Shown: one piece after another, positions 128-34,998 of the stretch
Numbering within the stretch: position 1 is the stretch's first letter
How the letters are laid out: each line of letters begins with the position of its first letter
Virus record (IMG/VR): IMGVR_UViG_3300048597_000142
Coordinates: 1 to 35,773 of that record
Direction: 5' to 3' (one strand)
From: a virus
DNA: 35,773 bases
Position numbers and translations under genes: made by a program
Notes under the pieces: model-generated
Databases searched by the model: none
The model's input: the letters and a program-made list of their open reading frames with translations, nothing else
What the model was told of the DNA's origin: nothing

Positions 128-189
128 CCGCCGAGGCGTTCGAGACGATTGGGCCGCTGCTGCAGTCCCTCGAGGTGGACTCCGAGTGA
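1..189 (+). CDS. Hypothetical protein, C-terminal part of junction-spanning gene
   Basis: This is the 3' part (62 codons plus stop) of a 112-residue protein whose 5' part lies at 35497-35646. The frame is open from the first base and stops with TGA at 187-189. The C-terminal half is predicted to be helical and acidic and ends in LEVDSE. The stop overlaps the GTG start of the next gene (GTGA at 186-189), the usual junction in this operon. I do not recognise the family. Small proteins of this kind are common at the end of actinophage early operons, but no function can be assigned. Confidence 0.85.
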   Translation: MAKAEADDRIEATFGPEARPAPDPIQVATRSLLDAWIEAFKFAAEAFETIGPLLQSLEVDSE

Positions 190-1094
190 CATCTACGAAA
201 CCAACCAACGCCGGCGCGCCGCTCATGGTGTACCCGCGTCTGCGGGTGAAGATGGCCGCGCTGTCGATCGAGGCGTACGTCGTGCTGAACAAGGTGTGGC
301 TGTACTGCCAGGACGCAGGCAACGGCGGCCGGTTCCACGTCGGCGAACTCCCGGCCGCCTGCGATCGCCTCCTCACCCCCGGCAAGCTGCAACGCGCGGT
401 CGCCGAGCTCGAACGGGCCACGATGACACACCAGGACGGCTCCACGTCGCCGCTGTGGCTCACCGTCGAATCCGATCACGTGCTGATGCCCGAGTGGTGG
501 ATCGAACTGAACCCCGGCGCTGACGTGTGGCAGGACGACACGCTGCGCTGGCGTCGCCAACGCAACAAGGAACTCCACGCACCCAAGCTCGAGCAGCTGC
601 GCGAGAAGATCCGCAAACGAGACCGGAACCTGTGCCGGTACTGCGGTCGCCGTGTGAAGTGGGGAGCGAACAACGCCCCGCACGGCGCCACCTACGACCA
701 CGTCGATCCCGACGAAGGCAACACCCTGAGCAACGTTGTGGTTGCTTGTCGCCAATGCAATGGCCGCAAGAAGGACCGCACCCCGGAGCAGTGGATCGAA
801 GAAGATCCTGCCCAGGGCCTGTCGTTGCTCCCGGCAGGGACCACCGCTGACCAGGTAGCGGCCGTCCGGACTGCGAGGGACGGACCACCCGAAGGTTCAT
901 CCCAAGTCGAACCACGGTTCGACCGTGTCGGCCGCTCGCGCGCGAGACCGTCCCGGGTCGAACCCGAGTCGAACCGAGTCGAACCGCACAGGGCTCCTGC
1001 TTCGTCGCGCCCGTCGCTAGTTCCTCCGATCGAGTTCGTTCCACCTCCTGATGATTCGCACTACCCGTTCCACGAAGGAGACATTCCGGCATGA
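186..1094 (+). CDS. Putative replication protein with HNH nuclease domain
   Basis: A 302-residue protein starting at GTG in a GTGA overlap. Residues 15-125 look like the winged-helix, DnaD/initiator-like N-terminal region of actinophage replication proteins, with short hydrophobic helices around residues 20-42 and a WWIEL strand near 104. Residues 135-205 form an HNH nuclease of the Cys4 type: C150-x2-C153, then DH at 171-172, N183, and C188-x2-C191-N followed by RKKDRTPEQ. The tail from residue 235 is disordered and contains repeated VEP triplets, which at DNA level are the GTCGAACC repeats. It is the only candidate replication gene in the genome. The HNH call is firm. The replication role is inferred from the N-terminal region, the position and the repeats, and a homing-type or packaging-linked nuclease is the alternative. 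Confidence 0.75.
   Translation: MTSTKPTNAGAPLMVYPRLRVKMAALSIEAYVVLNKVWLYCQDAGNGGRFHVGELPAACDRLLTPGKLQRAVAELERATMTHQDGSTSPLWLTVESDHVLMPEWWIELNPGADVWQDDTLRWRRQRNKELHAPKLEQLREKIRKRDRNLCRYCGRRVKWGANNAPHGATYDHVDPDEGNTLSNVVVACRQCNGRKKDRTPEQWIEEDPAQGLSLLPAGTTADQVAAVRTARDGPPEGSSQVEPRFDRVGRSRARPSRVEPESNRVEPHRAPASSRPSLVPPIEFVPPPDDSHYPFHEGDIPA
906..985. repeat. Cluster of five GTCGAACC 8-mers; iteron-like, candidate origin
   Basis: Direct copies of GTCGAACC lie at 906-913, 957-964, 968-975 and 978-985. An inverted copy at 916-923 makes a perfect 8-bp inverted repeat with the first (2-bp spacer). The last three are spaced 11 and 10 bp, about one helical turn. They lie inside the coding sequence of the putative replication protein, in its disordered linker, as the lambda ori iterons lie in gene O. 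No obvious AT-rich unwinding element is seen next to them, so the origin call is tentative. A coding-level VEP repeat is the alternative. Confidence 0.45.
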
Positions 1095-2044: not shown

Positions 2045-2117
2045 AGCGACGTGGAGCAGTTGGCAGCTCGTCGGGTTCATATCCCGAAGGTCGTGCGTTC
2101 GAGTCGCACCGTCGCCA
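2045..2117 (+). tRNA. Initiator-type tRNA-Met (anticodon CAT)
   Basis: A full 73-nt cloverleaf. Acceptor arms are 2045-2051 and 2110-2116, D-stem GAGC/GCTC, anticodon stem TCGGG/CCCGA with loop TTCATAT (CAT at 2078-2080), variable loop AGGTC, and T-stem GTGCG/CGCAC with loop TTCGAGT; the discriminator is A2117. Three marks of bacterial initiator tRNA are present: an unpaired 1-72 position (A2045 against C2116), an A11:U24 pair in the D-stem, and three consecutive G:C pairs at the base of the anticodon loop. The D-to-anticodon region closely resembles E. coli tRNA-fMet as I recall it. CCA is not encoded (ACAA follows), so the host must add it. An elongator Met or Ile2 tRNA is less likely because of the A11:U24 and GGG:CCC features. 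Confidence 0.93.
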
Positions 2118-2124
2118 CAAGCTG

Positions 2125-2421
2125 ATGGCCGGCCGTAGGAAGCCGTGGCACTCGGGCCGCTATCAGGCTGATGCTGCACTGGTGCGTCGGATGGCGTACC
2201 TGAACCCTGGCACTCGGTGCGTCACGTGTCGTCGGACGTTGGCCGAGATCCGTCTGGTTCACTCGACCGTGAAGTGGACCGCCGGTCACCTGAACGACTC
2301 CGAGGTCGGCGGCCAGCTCGGCCCCGAGTGCAGTCGCTGCAACTACAGCCGTGGCGCAGCGATGGGCAACCGTCGCCGCCGCACCCGGATCGTTCGCAAC
2401 CCGTCCTCGAGGGACTGGTGA
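2125..2421 (+). CDS. HNH endonuclease upstream of terminase
   Basis: A 98-residue basic protein. C33-x2-C36 and a second pair C-x2-C near residues 69-72 bracket a GHLNDSEVGG segment, giving the zinc-stabilised HNH fold; the C-terminus is arginine-rich. Small HNH proteins beside the terminase genes are common in HK97-like phages and in several systems are needed for terminase cleavage of cos or pac DNA. The gene starts 7 nt after the tRNA. I see no Shine-Dalgarno sequence, because the upstream bases are the tRNA acceptor stem, so translation may depend on tRNA 3' processing leaving an almost leaderless mRNA. Confidence 0.8.
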   Translation: MAGRRKPWHSGRYQADAALVRRMAYLNPGTRCVTCRRTLAEIRLVHSTVKWTAGHLNDSEVGGQLGPECSRCNYSRGAAMGNRRRRTRIVRNPSSRDW

Positions 2422-2519: not shown

Positions 2520-2951
2520 ATGGCACCTCGCAAGACTGCACCGGTGAAGAAGGCTGCTGCGAAGCGTTCTGCGCCCCGCAAGCGCCCGGCTGCATCGAAA
2601 AACGTCACGAAGTCGCCACCGGCTCGGCCTCGGAAAGCTCCTGCGAAGCGCGCCGCGAAACCGCCCGCCGATCCTGCGCCGACGGCCGAGGTCGTTCACG
2701 AGATCGGCGTGCTGAAGGCCGTGGAGGCGTTCATCGCGTCGTCGGAGATCACCGGTCAAGCCCGGGTGAAAGCCGAGATCGCCCGCAAGCTCGCCACCGC
2801 CCTCGACTCCGCTGACCCTCCGACAGCGCCGGCGCTCGCCCGCGAGCTGCAGACCGCCCTGATCGGGATCTTGCCGAGGGACGCGGAGGAACATGACGAC
2901 TGGACCACGCGACTGGGTGCCGCCGAGGATCGGAACGCCAAGGGATCCTGA
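2520..2951 (+). CDS. Putative terminase small subunit
   Basis: A 143-residue protein with a strong ribosome site (GAGGAGG about 5 nt before ATG). Residues 1-55 are a Lys/Ala/Pro-rich, histone-H1-like basic tail. Residues 62-125 form a helical region ending in a domain rich in A, L and R that resembles the C-terminal part of actinophage small terminases. It lies directly before the large subunit and overlaps it by 59 nt, the usual position for the DNA-recognition subunit that brings the large terminase to cos or pac. The call rests more on position and composition than on a firm motif. A nucleoid-like packaging protein is the alternative. Confidence 0.6.
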   Translation: MAPRKTAPVKKAAAKRSAPRKRPAASKNVTKSPPARPRKAPAKRAAKPPADPAPTAEVVHEIGVLKAVEAFIASSEITGQARVKAEIARKLATALDSADPPTAPALARELQTALIGILPRDAEEHDDWTTRLGAAEDRNAKGS

Positions 2952-4428
2952 CTGCGAAACGTACGGCGGCCAGGTCGCCGAGGTCGCTGACCGGCTCGGC
3001 ACCCCGCTGATGCCATGGCAGCAGCACGTCATGGACGTCGCCTACGAGATCGACCCCGCCACCGGCCGTCTGCGCTACGACGAAGTCGTGTTGACGATCA
3101 TGCGCCAGTCCGGCAAGACGACGGCTGTGCGTGCGAAGAAGGTGTGGCGGTGCACGGTCGCCTCACACCGGCTCGGTCCGCAGGTCGCGATGTACACCGC
3201 GCAGACCCGTGCCGCTGCCCGCAAGAAGCTCGAGCGCGACTTCATCGAGTCGCTCCGAGCCGCTCAGGATCGGGGCTCGTTCCTCGAGATCCGCAACCCG
3301 AAAGCCCGACCGACAAAGTCGACTCGGCAGTGGAAGGCGTCGCTCAACAACGGCCAGGAGCATCTGCTGTTCGGCCGCGGGAACTACCTGCAGATCGACG
3401 CCCCGAACCGTGAAGCCGGCCACGGTGACACGATCGACGACGCCACGATCGACGAAGCGTTCGCCCACCAGTCCGACGACGTCGAGCAGGCCGCCGTTCC
3501 GGCGATGGCGACCCGCAAGGACCGCCAACTCTGGGTGGTGTCCACGGCGGGTGACGAGAAGTCGTACTACTTCTGGCCGAAGGTCCGAGACGGCCGCCGC
3601 TCCGTCGAAGCTGGCACCGCATCGAACGTCGCCTACTTCGAGTGGTCGCTTCCACCCGAGGCAGACATCGACGACGAGGACGCCTGGTGGGAGTACATGC
3701 CCGCCCTCGGCCGCACCATCGACGTCGAGTTCATCCGCCGAGAGCTCGCCAAGGCCCGCCGCCGAGTCGACGAGAACGGCGAGGACCTGTTCCGCCGTGC
3801 CTACTGCAACCAGTGGGTGCGCATCCCGATCCTCGGCGACCTCGAACGCACCCAGATCATCGACCCCGCCACCTGGCAAGAACGTCACACACCAGGCGCA
3901 GTACACGTCGGCGACATCGCACTCGGTGTCGACGTCTCCTCAGACGGCGACACCACCGCACTCACCGCCTCCGGACGATGCGCCGACGGCCGAGTACTCG
4001 ACGAAGTGATCCACTTCGACCCGGGCACGTTCTGGCTCGAGCAACGCCTGTCCGAGCTCGTGCAACGCTACGCACCGGTCGCTATCGCCTACGACGCCGG
4101 CGGCCCCGCCCGAGTCATGGCCCCCGAGATCGCCCGAGCCGCCGGCGACACCCCACTCGTGAAGCTGTCCGGCCGTGAATGGTCAGCAGCGTGCGAAGGG
4201 TACGTGCTCGCCGTCAACGAGAACCGGGCCTGTCACCTCGACCAGGACTGGCTCAACGGTGCCGTCGAAGGTGCCGGCAAGAAACTCCGAGGCGACGGCT
4301 GGCTGTGGGACCGGCTCACCGCCATGTCCGACATCGCACCGCTGGCCGCGGTGACCGCATCACACCGGGCCATCGAAGCCCACGTGCCAGACACGTCGGC
4401 CGCCGAGCCATGGTTCGCATTCTCCTGA
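2893..4428 (+). CDS. terL: Terminase large subunit
   Basis: A 511-residue DNA-packaging ATPase and nuclease. The Walker A motif is RQSGKTT at residues 71-77. A Walker B-like ATIDEAF follows at about 184-190, and STAG near 217-220 fits the coupling motif. The C-terminal RNase H-like nuclease is marked by GVDVSSDGDTTAL (D347) and IAYDAGGP (D401). Length is normal for the HK97-type family. ATG 2893 follows GGAGGA at a good distance and overlaps the small subunit gene. It cuts concatemeric DNA and pumps it into the prohead through the portal encoded just downstream. Confidence 0.95.
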   Translation: MTTGPRDWVPPRIGTPRDPDCETYGGQVAEVADRLGTPLMPWQQHVMDVAYEIDPATGRLRYDEVVLTIMRQSGKTTAVRAKKVWRCTVASHRLGPQVAMYTAQTRAAARKKLERDFIESLRAAQDRGSFLEIRNPKARPTKSTRQWKASLNNGQEHLLFGRGNYLQIDAPNREAGHGDTIDDATIDEAFAHQSDDVEQAAVPAMATRKDRQLWVVSTAGDEKSYYFWPKVRDGRRSVEAGTASNVAYFEWSLPPEADIDDEDAWWEYMPALGRTIDVEFIRRELAKARRRVDENGEDLFRRAYCNQWVRIPILGDLERTQIIDPATWQERHTPGAVHVGDIALGVDVSSDGDTTALTASGRCADGRVLDEVIHFDPGTFWLEQRLSELVQRYAPVAIAYDAGGPARVMAPEIARAAGDTPLVKLSGREWSAACEGYVLAVNENRACHLDQDWLNGAVEGAGKKLRGDGWLWDRLTAMSDIAPLAAVTASHRAIEAHVPDTSAAEPWFAFS

Positions 4429-4442
4429 AAGGGGACCGCCCG

Positions 4443-4664
4443 ATGTCGTCGTTCGTTGAGCGTGCGGTCGCTGAGGCGACCGGCACGAAGCCGTCGCGAA
4501 TTCTGCTCACGATCCTGGCCGCACCGTTCTACCTGCTCGGTCTGCTGGTCGGCCTGGTCGTGGTGGTCGCGGTGGTGGCGTTCGGTGCGGTGAAGCTGGG
4601 TGTCGTCGACGTCCGCCGGCACGCCGAACGAACCCCGCCGGCCATCGTCGATGGTGACAGCTGA
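4443..4664 (+). CDS. Small single-pass membrane protein
   Basis: A 73-residue protein with a short polar N-terminus, one strong hydrophobic stretch at residues 21-52 (possibly two short helices, Val/Leu-rich) and a polar C-terminus. A purine-rich AAAGGGG precedes the ATG, and the stop overlaps the portal start by 1 nt (TGATG). Its place between terminase and portal is unusual for a membrane protein. I do not recognise the family. It could act in host membrane modification or superinfection exclusion, but nothing in the sequence shows this. Confidence 0.7.
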   Translation: MSSFVERAVAEATGTKPSRILLTILAAPFYLLGLLVGLVVVVAVVAFGAVKLGVVDVRRHAERTPPAIVDGDS

Positions 4665-6463
4665 TGCCGGGTCTGTTGGACCGGATCGCGGGGCAGCGCA
4701 AGGCGGCGTTCTCGCAGCCGAATTTCTGGACGTTGCCGGACATGTTCTCGACGGCACCGGTCGGTGCGTCCGAGACGGTGGAGAACAACTTCGCCGAGTA
4801 CGTCACCAAGCTGTACAAGGCCAACGGCATCGTCGCTGCGTGCATCGGTGCGCGGATGTTGCCGTTCTCCGAGGCCCGGTTCCAGTACCAGGAGGTCATC
4901 GACGGCCGCCCTGGTCGTCTCTTCGACGGCCCCGGTCTCGAGATCCTGAAGACACCGTGGACGAACGCGACAACCGGTGACCTGTTGTCACGGATGGAGC
5001 AGGAAGGCTCGATCGCCGGGAACTCGTACTGGACGCCCGTGAACGGCCGGCTGCGTCGCCTGCGACCGGACTGGGTGAAGATCCTGTCCGGTGTCGCCGG
5101 CGACCCGGAGGCATCACCGTTCGATCTCGACGCCGAGATCCTCGCCTACATCTACCATCCCACCACGACGGTGAACGGGCGGCGCCCCGATCCGGTGGTC
5201 CTGACCCCTGACCGGGTGGTGCACTACGCACCGATCCCCGATCCGCTGGCGCAGTGGCGTGGCATGTCGTGGCTGACCCCGATCGTCCGTGAGATCCAGG
5301 CCGACACGCACGCCACGAAGCACAAGCTCGCCTACTTCGAGAACGGCACCGCCCTGAACGTCGTCATCAAGTACGACGCAGCGGTGAAGCCCGAGGATCT
5401 GCCCCGCTATCAGGCCATCTTCGATCAGGCGCACAAAGGGTCCGGCAAGGCGTACAAGACGCTCCACCTCGGCGGCGGCGCCGACGCCTCCGTGCTCGGC
5501 GCTGACCTGAAGTCCATCGACTTCAAAGCCGTGCAGGGTGCCGGAGAGTCCCGCATTGCCGCTGCCGCTGGCGTGGGGGCGATCATTGCTCGTCTGTCGG
5601 AGGGGATGCAGGGTTCGTCGCTGAACCAGGGCAACTACGGTGCCGCCAAGCGGCAGTTCGCCGACATGACGCTCCGCCCGTTGTGGCGTTCGGCAGCCGG
5701 GTCGCTCGCCAAGATCTCCAGCGTGCCCGGCGGCGCCCGCCTTTGGATCGATGTCCGCGACGTCGAGTTCCTCAAGGAGGACCGCAAAGACGCCGCCGAG
5801 ATCCTGCAGCTGTCGGCCACCACGATCCGATCATTGGTCGACGCCGGCTACGACCCTGACGCCGTGATCGACGCCGTCGAAGCCGACGACCTGTCCCGGC
5901 TCACCGGCAAACACTCCGGCCTCTACAGCGTCCAGCTCCAAGAGCCGGGTGCCGGCGACACCGATTCCGCACGAGCGTTGTCGACGGCCGAGCAGCTACA
6001 GAAGCTGTATCTGGCGGTGGGCAAGGTCATCACGGCCGATGAGGCTCGAGCGATCGCCGGTATCGCCGGCGGCTTCACTCCAACAACGGAGAAGCAGATG
6101 ACGCGTGAGGAGTTCCGTGACGAGCTCGCCGAGCTCAAACTGTCCGGCCTACAGGCTCAGCCGTCAATCACGGTGAACGCCCCACCGATGACGGTGGATG
6201 CGCCGCAGATCTTCGTCGACGCCCAGTTGATCGCCGACGCAATCGTGCAACAAGCCGCCCCCACGGTCAACGTGACCGTCCCCGCCGCCGAGGTCACCGT
6301 CAACGTCGACCCGACACCTGTGACGGTCGCCCCGGCCGAGGTGACCGTGATCTCAGGTCCCGTGCCCGAAGTGAACGTGACCGTCGAAGCACCCCGCTCC
6401 AAGCACCGTGTGCGCCGCGACGCTCAAGGCAACATCATCGAAGTGATCGAGGAGCCCTCCTAA
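4664..6463 (+). CDS. Portal protein (HK97-type)
   Basis: A 599-residue protein. The core (about residues 30-410) has the HK97-type portal pattern: VYE-like N-terminal helices, a GNSYW strand, a VVHYAPIPDPLAQWRGMSWL segment, and the helical stem ending in a Q-rich GMQGSSLNQGNYGAAKRQF region. It forms the dodecameric ring at one vertex through which DNA is packaged and to which the tail attaches. The last 120 residues are an unusual extension: predicted strands rich in Val and Thr with repeated VTV/VNV units, ending in a basic-acidic tail (RVRRDAQGN). Such an extension is not needed for portal function and may be a surface or capsid-contact domain. Confidence 0.9.
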   Translation: MPGLLDRIAGQRKAAFSQPNFWTLPDMFSTAPVGASETVENNFAEYVTKLYKANGIVAACIGARMLPFSEARFQYQEVIDGRPGRLFDGPGLEILKTPWTNATTGDLLSRMEQEGSIAGNSYWTPVNGRLRRLRPDWVKILSGVAGDPEASPFDLDAEILAYIYHPTTTVNGRRPDPVVLTPDRVVHYAPIPDPLAQWRGMSWLTPIVREIQADTHATKHKLAYFENGTALNVVIKYDAAVKPEDLPRYQAIFDQAHKGSGKAYKTLHLGGGADASVLGADLKSIDFKAVQGAGESRIAAAAGVGAIIARLSEGMQGSSLNQGNYGAAKRQFADMTLRPLWRSAAGSLAKISSVPGGARLWIDVRDVEFLKEDRKDAAEILQLSATTIRSLVDAGYDPDAVIDAVEADDLSRLTGKHSGLYSVQLQEPGAGDTDSARALSTAEQLQKLYLAVGKVITADEARAIAGIAGGFTPTTEKQMTREEFRDELAELKLSGLQAQPSITVNAPPMTVDAPQIFVDAQLIADAIVQQAAPTVNVTVPAAEVTVNVDPTPVTVAPAEVTVISGPVPEVNVTVEAPRSKHRVRRDAQGNIIEVIEEPS

Positions 6464-6930
6464 TGGCCACCGGAAACATGCTCACCAACCGAGGCAAGCT
6501 CCTGCTGATGCAGGGCATCTGGGACGACGCCGGGGCGACAGCGATCCGCATGGGACTCGTCAAGGTACAGCCGGCAGGTGCCGACACCCAGGCCGAGGTG
6601 GACGACCTGAACACCGTCAACGATCTCCTCGTCACAGCAGGCGCCACCGAGTGCGACTTCACCAACTACGCCCGCAAGAACCTGTCCCGCTCGAACGCCG
6701 CCGAGGACGACACGAACAACCGCGTCAACCTCGACGCCGCCGACGTGGTGTGGACCGCAGCGGGCGGCGCGGCGAACAACACGATCCTCGGTGCGTTCTA
6801 CTACGACGCCACCACCGACACGAACGACACCACCCGCCTCCTGATCGGCATCGACTGGTTCGCGACCGGCATCTCCACCAACGGCGGCGACTTCACCTAC
6901 GCGATCGCCGACCTGATCCGGGCGGCCTGA
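6463..6930 (+). CDS. Putative virion protein, uncharacterised
   Basis: A 155-residue protein with no signal peptide or membrane helix. It resembles a widespread but uncharacterised phage family of about 150 residues that begins with a TNRGK-L-L motif, has AEVDDLN, the FTNYARK-LSR motif near residues 65-75, NNRVNLDAADVVWTAAGG near 86-105, and ends FTYAIADLIRAA. The composition (beta-rich, many T/N/D) fits a structural or decoration protein. It sits between portal and protease with two other probable virion proteins. The exact role is unknown. Confidence 0.7.
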   Translation: MATGNMLTNRGKLLLMQGIWDDAGATAIRMGLVKVQPAGADTQAEVDDLNTVNDLLVTAGATECDFTNYARKNLSRSNAAEDDTNNRVNLDAADVVWTAAGGAANNTILGAFYYDATTDTNDTTRLLIGIDWFATGISTNGGDFTYAIADLIRAA

Positions 6931-6931
6931 C

Positions 6932-7741
6932 GTGGCGATCACCACCCAGGATGAGCTCGTTGCGGCGCTCGGCACGGCACAACGCCTGATCCAGGTCAAG
7001 GCGAACGTCACTGCAGTGTCGGGCCGCATGTGCGCCCTGTGGTCTGGTGCCGGGCAGCCCGGTGCCGGCTCGACGACGCTCGGCCAGTCCGCTGCCGGTG
7101 TGGTACCCGTCGATTCCGACACAGGTTTCCAGACGTTCGTCAACCCCGGCGCGGGCAACTCGTATCTGGCCGGGGTGTCAGGCATCTCGGCGGTATCGGG
7201 TCTGCTCGTCATCTGGGACAACGTGTGGTGCTGGGGGTCGGGTGGCTCTGGTTGGAACGTGACGACCACCACCGCGCAGGACACGTCGTCGCCTGCGGCG
7301 CTGACACGTCCCGATTCGACCGGAGCGGGGACCGAGGCATGGTTCCATGTGCTCGCCACGATGGGTGCCGGCGCCGCGTCGCCGGTGCTGTCGTACACCA
7401 ACGGTGCTGGCACCTCGGGCCGCACGACGGGCACGCTCGGCTACAACGCCTCGGCGATCATTGGATCCATGTACCCGTTCCCGTTGCAGTCCGATGACAC
7501 CGGGGTGCGTTCAGTGCAGTCGCTCACGACATCGGTATCGATGAGCTCGGGCACAGCAGCCATTCGCATCATGCGCCGCGTGGCGTCGATCCCAGTGGTC
7601 GCGAACGTCGGCTTCAAGTACGACGCCTTCGACCTCGGAATGCCGCTCATCTCCAACGACGCAGCCCTGATGATCGGCAGCCAGGCTGCGTCCACGTCCT
7701 CCGGCCCGGTGCAACTGGAACTGATTCTGGCGCAGGGGTAG
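6932..7741 (+). CDS. Putative virion surface protein
   Basis: A 269-residue protein starting at GTG one base after the preceding stop. It is Gly/Ser/Thr-rich and beta-rich throughout. A helical start (residues 1-25, DELVAALGTAQRLIQVKAN) is followed by a GRMCALWSGAGQPGAGS segment that I have seen in uncharacterised phage virion proteins. There is no enzymatic motif. With its neighbours on both sides it forms a block of apparent surface proteins placed before the capsid genes. A head fibre, decoration protein or minor tail protein are all possible. Confidence 0.65.
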   Translation: MAITTQDELVAALGTAQRLIQVKANVTAVSGRMCALWSGAGQPGAGSTTLGQSAAGVVPVDSDTGFQTFVNPGAGNSYLAGVSGISAVSGLLVIWDNVWCWGSGGSGWNVTTTTAQDTSSPAALTRPDSTGAGTEAWFHVLATMGAGAASPVLSYTNGAGTSGRTTGTLGYNASAIIGSMYPFPLQSDDTGVRSVQSLTTSVSMSSGTAAIRIMRRVASIPVVANVGFKYDAFDLGMPLISNDAALMIGSQAASTSSGPVQLELILAQG

Positions 7742-23884: not shown

Positions 23885-25276
23885 ATGGCCCAGCAGATAA
23901 AACTTCGCGGCGACACCGACGCCAACTGGACGTCCGTCAACCCGGTGCTGGCTGACCGTGAACCGGGGTACGACGTCACCAACGGTGTGCTGAAGATCGG
24001 CGATGGGGTATCGGCGTGGACATCGCTGACGGGGATCTCTCTGGCGGGCGCGGTGATGAACTCCGACACGTCGACCGCCGACATGCTGTTCGTCATCGAC
24101 GAAGATGACATGACGACCAACTCGTCCACGAAGATCCCCACCCAGCAGTCGGTGAAGGCGTACGTGGACGCTTCAGTCACGGCCGGGTCCCCCGTCGTGG
24201 CGATCGCCACCTACTCATCCGGATGGCCGTCGCGTCCGACCGCTGACATCGTGTTCTGGGTGTCCGAGGATCCGCTCGCCACCACGCCAGGTGCGGCAAC
24301 CGGTGACGACGTCGTTGTTCTGCCGGCGCAGGTCACCACCCCGGCTGCGGTGTCGAACTCGACCACGGCGTACACGCTCGACGATGACGATGACGGCACG
24401 ACAAGCATCCACACGAACGCCAGCCTGGTCACGGTCACCGTCCCCACCGACGGCGCCGATGATCTCCGTAACGGGTTCCGTCATCGCATCTTCGCTGCCG
24501 GCGCTGCCGGCGTGCAGCTCGGGGTGTCCGGCATCACGCTGCTCGGTGCGTCTCCGTTCACCAAGATCGCTCAGAACGGCTACATGGACCTCGAGAAGAC
24601 GGCGTCGGCGAACACGTGGCTGGTGATGGGTGCCACGTTGGCGGGTGCGGCCGGGTTCGGTGGGGACACCTACACGTACGAAGAGGGCACGAACGGCGTC
24701 GACATCGGCACCGGCACCGGTGTCACAGCGGTCACGGCCAGCGCGCCAAAGTACTCGACGGCCGCGGCGTTCCACGGCTCGCTCGGCTACAACTGCATTG
24801 GGCAGCAGGCCCTGTTCTACGCCGCGCCAGCCGACGACTTCTCCGGATCGGTGTACGTCGAGCCGCACGTCAACGGTGCGTCGTCGTCCAACAGGATCAT
24901 CACGTTGCAGACCGCGGCGGACGCCGAGATCTGCGCCCTGCGTCTGCACAGCACGGCCGGCGTGATCTCGCTGGTGAACTCGGCGAACACGATCGCGGTG
25001 TCCGCCACCACCACCTGGGCAGTGAACGATCTCTTCCGGTTCGATTGGCAGGCCGACTACAACGACGGAGCCGACACGCTCGCCCTCTCGGTGCGCATCT
25101 TCAAGGGCGCCAACGTCGAAGGCACCACACCAGACGAGACGATCTCCAACACGTTCACGTCTGTGACCGCTCCGTGCACGAAGGTCCGGGTCGGTAACTA
25201 CAACACGGGCACCTGGGACTTCTACTTCGACACACTGCGCCTCAACGACGCCCTGGAATGGATTGGTCCGCTGTGA
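23885..25276 (+). CDS. Tail fibre / receptor-binding protein
   Basis: A 463-residue protein with AAAGGATG upstream. Residues 1-50 are the recurring phage fibre head: AQQIKLRGDTDANW, VLADREPGYDVTNGVLKIGDG and W-T-L, as in tropism-determinant and hyaluronidase-type tail proteins. At about 75-100 a second fibre motif follows (TKIPTQQSVKAYVDASV). Residues 110-250 are beta-rich. The last 200 residues look like a concanavalin-type jelly roll (YEEGTNGVDIGTGTG to FYFDTLRLND). This order (attachment, trimer stalk, lectin-like head) fits host recognition. Confidence 0.75.
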   Translation: MAQQIKLRGDTDANWTSVNPVLADREPGYDVTNGVLKIGDGVSAWTSLTGISLAGAVMNSDTSTADMLFVIDEDDMTTNSSTKIPTQQSVKAYVDASVTAGSPVVAIATYSSGWPSRPTADIVFWVSEDPLATTPGAATGDDVVVLPAQVTTPAAVSNSTTAYTLDDDDDGTTSIHTNASLVTVTVPTDGADDLRNGFRHRIFAAGAAGVQLGVSGITLLGASPFTKIAQNGYMDLEKTASANTWLVMGATLAGAAGFGGDTYTYEEGTNGVDIGTGTGVTAVTASAPKYSTAAAFHGSLGYNCIGQQALFYAAPADDFSGSVYVEPHVNGASSSNRIITLQTAADAEICALRLHSTAGVISLVNSANTIAVSATTTWAVNDLFRFDWQADYNDGADTLALSVRIFKGANVEGTTPDETISNTFTSVTAPCTKVRVGNYNTGTWDFYFDTLRLNDALEWIGPL

Positions 25277-26774: not shown

Positions 26775-27566
26775 TCAGGCGGTCATCGATGCGACGACAT
26801 CGGTCGACCTCGACCTGGACCACCGGGTGTAGATCGCCGTGGTGGTCGGCGAGGAGTGCCCGAGCAGCTCCTGCACCATGCGAAGGTCGTTCCCGGATGC
26901 TTCGTAGGCAGCGGTGGCGAACCAGTGCCGGAGCTGGTGGGCCGATGCCCGGATGCCGCATTCCGTGAGGTGTCGGCGGATGGCGTGGGAGACCTGCCAC
27001 GGCTCGAGACCGAACACCGACCCGTACGCCGGCCGTCGCAGCGCGCCGAGCGACGCCCGGACCAGTGGATGCACCGGCATCACCCGGTCCTTGCCGCCCT
27101 TGCCGTGCACGAGCATCATGTCGCCGTTGATGTCCTCGACGTTGAGGTGGGCGATCTCGGCGCACCGCAACCCGTCGAACGCCGCCAGGTGCAACATTGC
27201 GGTCAGCTCCGGTGACGTCGACTGCCGGAGGGCGTAGCGGAGCTCGTCGGTGCCAATCGGCCGTGGGAGCCCCGCACGGACCTTCGGACGGTCGATGCGC
27301 GCCGTCGGGTCGATGTCGACGAGGTCCTCACGGATCGCCCACCGGAAGAACGCCGAGATGTGCGAGATGTCGGTGTAGCGGGTGCGTGCCGTCACCGTCC
27401 GAGAGTCCAGCCAGGTCTCGACGTCCTCGGTCGTGACGTCGATCAGCTCGACGCCGGCGTGGGCGCTCAGGCGCCGTGCGACGCTGGTGCGCTTCTCGAT
27501 GGTTCCGTCGACGAGACCGCGCCGACGCATCGATCGAGCCCACGCCACCACCGGATCCCCGCCCAT
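26775..27566 (-). CDS. int: Tyrosine recombinase (integrase)
   Basis: A 263-residue site-specific recombinase, leftward. Residues 1-95 are the SAM-like core-binding domain (DPVVAWARSMRRRGLVDGTI to FFRWAIREDLVDIDP). The catalytic domain carries R134 (FDGLRCAEI), K157 or K159 (HGKGGKD), H210-x2-R213 (SAHQLRH), H237 (LLGHSS) and the nucleophile Y246 (AIYTRW). I start at ATG 27566 because the frame extended to 27698 would overlap the repressor by 86 bp and adds low-complexity sequence. It integrates and excises the prophage, probably at the site just downstream. There is no long N-terminal arm-binding domain, so arm binding may be weak or absent. Confidence 0.92.
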   Translation of the reverse strand: MGGDPVVAWARSMRRRGLVDGTIEKRTSVARRLSAHAGVELIDVTTEDVETWLDSRTVTARTRYTDISHISAFFRWAIREDLVDIDPTARIDRPKVRAGLPRPIGTDELRYALRQSTSPELTAMLHLAAFDGLRCAEIAHLNVEDINGDMMLVHGKGGKDRVMPVHPLVRASLGALRRPAYGSVFGLEPWQVSHAIRRHLTECGIRASAHQLRHWFATAAYEASGNDLRMVQELLGHSSPTTTAIYTRWSRSRSTDVVASMTA

Positions 27567-27612
27567 GGGAGCAAGGTAGTGAACATCTGGCAGGACATCA
27601 GTCAAGACTTCC

Positions 27613-27915
27613 TCACGCTGCGACGGCCGCGGTGTTGGCGAACAGCTCGAGTTGGTCGATCTCCGCTGAGAAGCATCTACTTCTGAGATCGGGGTCATCC
27701 CCGTGGATCAACCACGAGACGGGCACGCCGGTGGCTGTGGCCCACTTCGTGATCGCCTTCACCGGGATGTCTGTGTGATCGTTCTCGTAGTTGCTGATGG
27801 TGCCTCGCGACGCGCCGATGATTGTCGCCATCTGCTCTGAGCCGATCCCCGCCTGACTGCGCGCCTTGCGCAGCCGATCACCCAACGTCCAAACCGGGGT
27901 GATGATGTCTGTCAT
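27613..27915 (-). CDS. XRE-type repressor (likely immunity repressor)
   Basis: A 100-residue protein starting at ATG 27915. Residues 10-70 form a Cro/C1-type HTH: LGDRLRKARSQAGIGSEQMA then GASRGTISNYEND with the recognition helix near 36-46, and ITKWATATGVPVSWLIHG. The C-terminal 25 residues are short, with no LexA-like protease domain, so it is unlikely to be cleaved by RecA; induction may work through another signal. It lies leftward with the integrase and faces the early operon across operator-like repeats. Its mRNA is probably leaderless (the -10 ends 7 nt before ATG). Confidence 0.88.
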   Translation of the reverse strand: MTDIITPVWTLGDRLRKARSQAGIGSEQMATIIGASRGTISNYENDHTDIPVKAITKWATATGVPVSWLIHGDDPDLRSRCFSAEIDQLELFANTAAVAA

Positions 27916-28000: not shown

Positions 28001-28029
28001 TTGACATGGCGCTGTACGTTGTGCAGTCT
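28001..28029 (+). promoter_or_regulatory. Early operon promoter, leaderless
   Basis: TTGACA at 28001-28006, a 17-bp spacer and CAGTCT at 28024-28029, with the ATG of the first early gene 8 nt later, so the mRNA would be leaderless. ACGTTGTGCA (28016-28025) sits at the same distance from the -35 as in the repressor promoter. The -10 is weak, so activation or release by another protein is possible. A 12-bp palindrome (TGACATATGTCA, 28032-28043) covers the start codon. Confidence 0.65.
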
Positions 28030-28037
28030 GTTGACAT

Positions 28038-28220
28038 ATGTCAGACCTCGTCTCCACCGCTTGGGCAGCCCAAGCACTGGGCGTGCACTCCGCAACGATC
28101 CGCCGAATGGTCGATCGTGGGCAGTTGACGCCAGCCACGAAACTGCCTGGCCTACGTGGCGGGTACATGTTCCACCAAGCGGACATCATCCGCGCCGCCA
28201 CGAAGCGGGCCGCAGCGTGA
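28038..28220 (+). CDS. Small HTH protein, excisionase/Cro-like
   Basis: A 60-residue protein, the first gene of the early operon. Residues 5-30 form a MerR/excisionase-type winged helix start (VSTAWAAQALGVHSATIRRMVDRGQL), followed by a short wing (LRGGYMFHQADI) and a basic tail. Proteins of this type either bend DNA for excision or bind the operator to switch development. Position opposite the repressor suits both. The first bases (ATG-TCA-GAC) resemble those of the repressor gene (ATG-ACA-GAC). Confidence 0.75.
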   Translation: MSDLVSTAWAAQALGVHSATIRRMVDRGQLTPATKLPGLRGGYMFHQADIIRAATKRAAA

Positions 28221-28720
28221 CCCGGCGCACCGTGATCACCGAGGGACGGCACTACGCCATCGACCTCGAGTCGGGATGCTGGAACTGGCTGCTGTCGCTG
28301 ACCCGTGACGGGTACGGCCGGTCCGCCCACGGCGTGCCGGCGCACCGCCGCTCGTTCGTCGAGTCCGGCGGCGAGCTGCTCCCCGGTCAGCCGCTCGACC
28401 ATCTGTGCCGGAACCGGCGCTGCGTCAACCCGGCCCACCTGGAGCCGGTCACGATCGCCGAGAACACCCGCCGCTCACTCGAAGCGCGTGGCCTCGTCGA
28501 CCGTGAGACCTGCCCGCACGGTCACTCGATGGCCGACGCCTACGTGCACCCCGAGACCGGCAAACGGTCCTGCCGTGAGTGCCGCCGAGGTTGGGCCCTG
28601 AACTGGCACCACAAGAACGCCGGCCGCCCCGTCGGCACCCGTCACCTCAGCATCGTCCCGCCGATCGAAGCCGACCCGACCCCAGCCCACGGTCTCGAGC
28701 GTCCGGTGGTGGCGTCGTGA
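28217..28720 (+). CDS. HNH endonuclease with zinc ribbon
   Basis: A 167-residue protein from GTG in a GTGA overlap. Residues 15-80 match HNH_3: GCWNW at 20-24, an HR pair at 43-44, LDHLCRNRRCVNPAHLEPVT with D61-H62, C64, N71 and H74. Residues 97-125 form a second zinc element (C99-H-x-H...C119-x2-C122). Free-standing HNH_3 nucleases are frequent in actinophages and often act as homing endonucleases. In an operon without introns it may nick competing or host DNA. A longer frame reaching upstream to 28001 would cover the whole previous gene and is rejected. Confidence 0.85.
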   Translation: MTRRTVITEGRHYAIDLESGCWNWLLSLTRDGYGRSAHGVPAHRRSFVESGGELLPGQPLDHLCRNRRCVNPAHLEPVTIAENTRRSLEARGLVDRETCPHGHSMADAYVHPETGKRSCRECRRGWALNWHHKNAGRPVGTRHLSIVPPIEADPTPAHGLERPVVAS

Positions 28721-34148: not shown

Positions 34149-34426
34149 CCCGCGCACAGGCTAGTGCCGGTGCGAGCCGTCCCGCGCAGCGAACCGCGAC
34201 TACCAGCGCCGCCACCTCGAGGATCGAGCCGCCCTACGTGTCCGCCACCGCCGCCCGCGCTCACGTCCTCGAGCTCGCAGCCGCCGGCGTCGGCCTCAAG
34301 ACCATCGCCAAGGCCGGCGGCATCCCGCACGGCACCCTGTCGAAGCTGATGTACGGCGACCGGACGAGGGGCATGACCCCATCGAAACGGATCCGCCGCT
34401 CCACCCCGACCGCATCCTCGCCGTGA
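34145..34426 (+). CDS. HTH protein, upstream half of a split regulator
   Basis: A 93-residue protein from GTG. After a disordered start, residues 37-78 form an HTH domain: SATAARAHVLELAAAGVGLK, TIAKAGGIPHGTLSKLMYGD, ending in MTPSKRIRRSTP. In related actinophage proteins as I recall them, this KRIRRST segment continues as a DRILAVTP sequence and a second HTH in one chain. Here that continuation is read in the -1 frame (DRILAVTPA at 34405-34431), as the start of the next gene. A single missing C in the ACCCCG run would explain the break; a GTGA reinitiation site is at the junction. Confidence 0.7.
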   Translation: MTRAQASAGASRPAQRTATTSAATSRIEPPYVSATAARAHVLELAAAGVGLKTIAKAGGIPHGTLSKLMYGDRTRGMTPSKRIRRSTPTASSP

Positions 34427-34998
34427 CCCCCGCAGCAGCCCGCGGCACCTCCCGAGTCGACGCCACCACCACGAAAGCCCTGCTCGCAGAGATGATCGAC
34501 GCGGGTGTCCCGAAGGTGCGGATCGCCGCCGAGCTCGGCTCCGCGGCACCCGGCCTACAGATCGGCCGCCGCCAACTCGTGAACGCAGCGACAGCGGCCG
34601 CGGTGGCCGCGTTGCACGCCCGGTGGACGACAGGGGAGTGGGTCCCGGTGCGCCGCGACCGTTACGGCAACATCACACCCTGCCCACCACCGCCCGCGCC
34701 GGCCAAGCCAACGGCAGACATCTCGGACCTGCTCCTCGATCTCGCCGAAGCAGTCGAGACCCGCAACGACCAGGCCGACTGGCGCCAGTCCGCCGCCTGC
34801 CGCAACCGGCCCTCCTACCTGTGGTTCCCCACCCGCGGTGACAACCAGACCCGAGACGCAGGACTGAAGATCTGCGCAGCGTGCATCGTTCGCGACGCCT
34901 GCCGCGCAGCGAACTTCGACCAACCCGAAGGCACCTACGGCGGACTCACCGCCAGTGCCCGCCGCGCAGCGCGCCGCATCGAGGTCACCGCAGCATGA
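34423..34998 (+). CDS. HTH-WhiB fusion transcription factor
   Basis: A 191-residue protein from GTG in a GTGA overlap. Residues 10-70 are HTH-like (KALLAEMIDAGVPKVRIAAELG, LQIGRRQLVNAATAAAVAALH) and look like the second half of the upstream HTH protein. Residues 118-185 are a WhiB domain: C126, C151-x2-C154, C160 for an iron-sulfur cluster and GTYGGLT, where family members usually have a G-x-W-G-G turn (Y here). WhiB proteins are found only in actinobacteria and their phages; phage versions can repress host WhiB genes or affect immunity. The fusion with an HTH is unusual. Confidence 0.85.
   Translation: MTPAAARGTSRVDATTTKALLAEMIDAGVPKVRIAAELGSAAPGLQIGRRQLVNAATAAAVAALHARWTTGEWVPVRRDRYGNITPCPPPPAPAKPTADISDLLLDLAEAVETRNDQADWRQSAACRNRPSYLWFPTRGDNQTRDAGLKICAACIVRDACRAANFDQPEGTYGGLTASARRAARRIEVTAA

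Follow-up and report, generated by a model that had tools for sequence, protein, structure and literature searches.

An initiator-type tRNA gene heading the packaging operon of a probable temperate actinobacteriophage

The 35,773-base stretch of viral DNA analysed here (the window) carries a single tRNA gene, which has the sequence and structure of an initiator tRNA-fMet(CAU) and opens the packaging (late) operon, a position that recurs in other viral loci. We consider it probable that the gene encodes a functional phage initiator tRNA, which would be made from the late operon, matured, charged and formylated by the host, and would add to or replace the host initiator.

Results

Sequence and structure of the tRNA

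ARAGORN placed a lone tRNA, Met(CAT), at 2045-2118 on the plus strand, and the Rfam RF00005 match at 2045-2117 (59.4 bits, E 1.4e-10; gathering score 29) was the only one across the entire virus record, so that the single tRNA counted in a preliminary description of this DNA is confirmed. The gene reads AGCGACG TG GAGC AGTTGGCA GCTC G TCGGG TTCATAT CCCGA AGGTC GTGCG TTCGAGT CGCAC CGTCGCC A, and its minimum-free-energy fold is the cloverleaf (Table 1). The CAT anticodon, unpaired A-C at 1-72, A11:U24 and three G:C pairs named in that description all proved correct on direct reading: the anticodon lies at 2078-2080, sequence and fold agree on A1 x C72 with no Watson-Crick pair, A11:U24 is present in the sequence, and G29:C41, G30:C40 and G31:C39 (GGG/CCC) lie at 2073-2075 and 2083-2085. 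The sequence also holds the formylation-side determinants G2:C71, C3:G70, G4:C69 and A73, and the gene ends ...GCCA-CAAG with no encoded CCA. These features, together with the 8-nt D-loop, U32/U38 and the packaging-operon position, had been missed. The known determinants of formylation are the 1-72 mismatch, G2:C71, C3:G70 and A11:U24, and the three G:C pairs are the P-site mark (PMC7949028).

Table 1. Features of the tRNA gene and of the genes discussed in the text (window positions).
Feature	Position	Strand	Basis or remarks
Initiator-type tRNA-fMet(CAU) gene, 73 nt, CCA not encoded	2045..2117	+	ARAGORN, Rfam, covariance models, fold
Acceptor 5' strand AGCGACG	2045..2051	+	A1 unpaired with C72 (2116); G2:C71, C3:G70, G4:C69
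D arm GAGC-AGTTGGCA-GCTC with A11:U24, 8-nt D-loop	2054..2069	+	sequence, host list
Anticodon arm TCGGG-TTCATAT-CCCGA	2071..2087	+	three G:C pairs kept; U32 (2076), U38 (2082)
Second HNH endonuclease gene, upstream of tRNA	186..1094	+	PF01844, 1.4e-6
Small HNH-type endonuclease gene, 7 nt after tRNA	2125..2421	+	motif CxxC...GH...CxxCN...MGN
Small Lys/Ala-rich ORF in TerS position	2520..2951	+	assigned by position only
Terminase large subunit (TerL)	2893..4428	+	phrog_9, 2.4e-63
Portal protein	4664..6463	+	42-50% identical to Rhodococcus and Gordonia phage portals
Tyrosine integrase	26775-27698	-	
WhiB-family transcription factor	34423-34998		PF02467, 4e-11; actinobacterial and actinophage regulator

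Initiator or elongator identity

Two covariance models were built, one from actinobacterial initiator genes (17 rows, two of them phage or viral-type) and one from actinobacterial elongator-Met plus Ile2 genes. The phage tRNA scored 78.4 bits with the initiator model versus 65.3 with the elongator model, a margin of 13 bits; a control host initiator (L155) scored 104.8 and 67.5 bits, respectively, and a control host elongator (L278) 70.6 and 94.2. Among 9917 reannotated bacterial CAT tRNAs (PMC5143459, Tables 2-3), 4430 of 4438 initiators have A11:U24, against 0 of 2762 elongator-Met genes and 0 of 2717 Ile2 genes. The model scores and the absence of A11:U24 from Met and Ile2 elongators thus favour initiator identity, and the covariance comparison that had been singled out as the test of this claim fell on the initiator side. 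An elongator tRNA-Met or tRNA-Ile2 with initiator-like features would have the same CAT anticodon, and the score with the elongator model does reach 65.3 bits; however, the initiator model scores higher, none of the 5479 Met and Ile2 elongators has A11:U24, and position 1-72 is unpaired in the phage tRNA. We regard elongator identity as extremely improbable and rejected it on the model scores and the A11:U24 counts. BLAST matches to Mycobacterium phages, 168 in number, were not taken as initiators; the sole Mycobacterium phage row listed carries the annotation tRNA-Trp.

Divergence from host initiator genes

Sampled actinobacterial initiators have C-U, C-C or C-A at 1-72. No match to the A1...C72 pattern turned up in 396 actinobacterial genomes, and A1 x C72 is recorded in 1 of 4438 bacterial initiators (PMC5143459), which upholds the earlier view that the gene does not merely reproduce the usual bacterial type. 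Many 1-72 combinations occur among the IMG/VR initiator-core matches listed, and A1 x C72 is found in 10 of the 100 distinct viral initiator genes among them; the excess over the published bacterial count has P ~2e-16, a guide only, related sequences not being independent. A1 x C72 is thus phage-enriched but not unique. The comparison with host tRNA-fMet genes, likewise proposed at the outset, gave a best match of 82% identity and differences at positions 1, 32, 38 and in the D-loop, which is 8 nt long in the phage gene and has one more base in nearly all listed host initiators. Because the nearest sampled host genes are of the C1 x C72, TCGGG-stem type, the phage form lies a single change, C1 to A1, away. 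CCA is usually encoded in actinobacterial initiator genes (PMC5143459).

The virus and its host

Portal, TerL, capsid, protease, tail and tape-measure genes mark the virus as a siphovirus-type tailed phage. Its portal relatives found in genomes were all actinobacterial, and the WhiB gene agrees with the actinobacterial host to which they point; the tyrosine integrase suggests that the phage is probably temperate. The window also encodes a tail-fibre-like protein (23885-25276) whose N-terminal domain is that of Major tropism determinant (PF18454, 3e-13) and a third, homing-endonuclease-like HNH gene (28001-28720; PF13392).

A terminase search found no close relatives among viral contigs, and relatives were obtained by portal alignment instead. 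One of these, IMGVR_UViG_3300044736_000032, also has 35,773 bases but is only ~69% identical to the window, in patches; the equal length is apparently a coincidence. The proposed check of related phages for the same tRNA at the same place came out negative: the tRNA was absent from all 32 loci that share the portal or capsid protein, and ~20 of these reach far enough upstream to include its site. The tRNA is therefore dispensable and not core to the phage group.

The integrase raises the question of whether the tRNA gene is what remains of a host tRNA-fMet gene that served as attachment site, left at a prophage end; many IMG/VR matches near contig ends with ACCA do resemble host genes beside proviruses. 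Such an origin is very improbable here: the integrase gene lies ~25 kb from the tRNA (~10 kb the other way round), the tRNA sits inside a phage module, HNH-tRNA-HNH-TerL, and identity to the nearest sampled host gene is only 82%. The distance of the integrase led us to reject it.

Position in the packaging operon

The tRNA gene lies inside the phage genome, between HNH genes and the TerL, portal and capsid genes, where it leads the packaging (late) operon on the same strand; initiator tRNAs at four other loci are placed likewise. HNH-TerS-TerL is a known packaging module, and packaging HNH proteins of HK97 type are known. The HNH protein encoded just after the tRNA gave weak PHROG HNH matches (0.0046, 0.0063) and shares its motif with the HNH protein of locus L119; profile comparison found no family match for the ORF in the TerS position. 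L119, which was found solely via its tRNA and whose TerL is 33% identical to that of the window, has the order initiator tRNA (also A1 x C72) - HNH - small ORF - TerL - portal. The order initiator tRNA - HNH - (TerS) - TerL is common to the window, L119, L012, L039 and L023, and an HNH gene occupies the same place between tRNA and TerL in all four of these other close cases, with TerLs that are 18-33% identical or not detectably similar. Directly upstream lie an antitermination Q gene in L039 and a NusG-like gene in L023. In L023, the gene directly after the initiator tRNA (6265-7128, minus strand) encodes an HNH domain fused to an AAA-type domain and matches the TerS family phrog_4581.

TerL was sought with phrog_9 and phrog_2 in 50 viral records and had a usable position in 21. 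For 4 of the 21, the tRNA lay on the same strand no more than 2 kb upstream of TerL, against 1.0 expected (P 0.015); with the limit set at 5 kb the count was 8, against 2.5 expected (P 0.0014). The test followed the first sighting, in L119, and used hand-picked records, so that these P values serve only as a guide. In phage L the late operon begins with elongator tRNA genes (PMC8022706). As far as we found, an initiator tRNA ahead of HNH-TerS-TerL is undescribed.

A promoter scan found no good sigma-70 promoter or terminator for the tRNA. The perfect TTGACA at 1971-1976 has no good -10 partner, and its candidacy as a dedicated promoter was rejected. A small Cys-rich ORF (1807-1974) overlaps the stop of the upstream gene (ATGA) and ends 70 nt before the tRNA. 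On the other side (2118-2127), the HNH ATG follows the tRNA by 7 nt without a Shine-Dalgarno sequence, and excision of the tRNA would leave a nearly leaderless HNH mRNA.

Initiator tRNAs in other viruses

The initiator core was found in more than 119 IMG/VR contigs; an initiator was the only tRNA in at least 30 of 43 checked records, a list that leaned towards such records; and the gene in Stenotrophomonas phage QDWS359 (vB_Sm_QDWS359) is already annotated as tRNA-fMet. A lone initiator tRNA is thus not the oddity among phages that it had been taken for. Positions 31 and 41 were unconstrained in the search pattern, yet they are G and C in every one of the 119 viral initiator-core genes listed, while position 32 differs in 12 and position 38 in 15 of the same 119, so that the P-site mark is kept in these viral genes.

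This conservation bears on whether the gene is a passenger, neutral or in decay, that travelled with the neighbouring HNH genes or came through host recombination, and whose 1-72 position, D-loop and anticodon loop have relaxed. HNH genes on both sides of the tRNA, its absence from relatives, the lack of CCA and the shortened D-loop would all suit a passenger. We nevertheless judge this unlikely, as every initiator-defining pair is intact, the fold is the energy minimum, the three G:C pairs are kept without exception in the viral copies listed, and the same placement is seen in phages with unrelated terminases.

The U32/U38 anticodon loop

The phage loop has U32...U38 where all listed actinobacterial initiators have C32...A38. 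The initiator core matched in 173 of 198 actinobacterial genomes (C32 and A38 in all listed), whereas GGGTTCATATCCCNNAGGTC, the arm with U32/U38, matched in 0 of 396, a bacterial control that covers one phylum, Actinomycetota. The same arm matched in 46 viral contigs; in about 37 of these A11:U24 is present as well, so that they are initiator-like. Isolates with this loop are DSS3_MAL1, Phaeobacter MD18 and Erwinia pEa_SNUABM_44; phage IME13 has U38 only.

VapC of enteric bacteria is stated to cut tRNA-fMet between A38 and C39 (PMC4105405). The phage U38 borders this cut, known for enteric VapC and not for this host, and the listed actinobacterial genes have A38. Host VapC-type anticodon nucleases might therefore destroy tRNA-fMet during infection while the U32/U38 phage copy stays uncut and initiation continues. 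Consistent with this, the arm is confined to viral contigs in the counts above, the loop is common to the three isolates (with U38 in IME13), and it is altered while the adjoining three G:C pairs are unchanged; there is also precedent in mycobacteriophage elongator tRNAs with loop mutations at nuclease sites, for which nuclease escape was proposed (PMC10264068). On the other hand, 84 of the 100 distinct viral initiator-core genes among the matches listed keep the normal loop, the cut comes from an enteric enzyme, the bacterial control is a single phylum, T32 with C38 is also found in host elongator-Met loops, and a non-initiator phage tRNA-Met (Kc304) has the same loop. The same study reports that phages generally avoid encoding tRNA-fMet (PMC10264068), which also speaks against evasion; this avoidance does not fit the viral contigs found here. 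Escape from an anticodon nuclease by a phage initiator is plausible in itself and a specific role of this kind is possible for the U32/U38 subset, but as an account of the present gene it is doubtful. Still less likely, to our minds, is a widespread unrecognised class of phage initiators at packaging-operon heads, with altered 32/38, that replaces cut host tRNA-fMet so that late initiation depends on the phage copy.

Discussion

Several lines of evidence favour a functional phage initiator. All initiator marks are intact despite divergence from the host genes, the initiator covariance model leads, and the P-site mark is kept across the viral initiator-core genes listed (n=119). The order tRNA - HNH - (TerS) - TerL recurs with dissimilar TerLs and with Q or NusG-like genes upstream, and the excess within 5 kb of TerL has an elongator parallel in phage L (PMC8022706). 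Against this stand the failure to find a good promoter or terminator, the unencoded CCA and the absence of the tRNA from related loci.

We infer that the tRNA is expressed, processed, charged and formylated, and that it benefits the phage. A temperate actinobacteriophage would transcribe the tRNA from the head of its packaging operon; host RNases would excise it and the host enzyme would add CCA. Host MetRS would then charge it and host Fmt formylate it, P-site entry would proceed through the three G:C pairs, and the phage initiator would add to (or replace) the host initiator during late protein synthesis. Most likely it is expressed with the late genes, as a working initiator that swells the host pool at the late translation peak.

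The reason for tRNA carriage by phages has long been an open question, and codon compensation, commonly invoked for elongators, cannot account for an initiator. A small temperate phage with a lone initiator isolates the question to one tRNA and one translation step, for which an in vitro assay is ready. The recurrent place before HNH-TerS-TerL predicts late expression, and the U32/U38 loop predicts resistance to nucleases that cut at 38/39.

Like bacterial initiator tRNA-fMet (e.g., actinobacterial C1 x C72 or C1 x U72 genes), the phage gene has a 1-72 mismatch, G2:C71, C3:G70, A11:U24, the three G:C pairs, CAU and A73; it differs in being phage-encoded, with A1 instead of C1, U32/U38 instead of C32/A38, a D-loop one base shorter and no encoded CCA. 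The lambdoid late-operon tRNAs of phages L and Sf6 (PMC8022706) likewise occupy the 5' end of that operon, with an antiterminator ahead of them in some loci, but are elongators (Asn, Leu, Thr). The nuclease-insensitive tRNAs of mycobacteriophage cluster C1 (PMC10264068) also have an anticodon-loop change beside a known nuclease cut; they are elongators, whereas for the present initiator such resistance is a prediction.

Phage initiator tRNAs are a kind that is known but hardly studied. Those of vB_Sm_QDWS359, DSS3_MAL1, MD18, pEa_SNUABM_44, Lak-B1 and crAss cr60_1 are of the same initiator type; the QDWS359 and cr60_1 copies adjoin terminase, as in the window, and the DSS3_MAL1, MD18 and pEa_SNUABM_44 copies have its U32/U38. 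Unlike the window, all six belong to larger phages, most with further tRNAs, and none of the sequences read from them has A1 x C72. The combination of A1 x C72, U32/U38 and packaging-operon position is therefore a variant worth testing.
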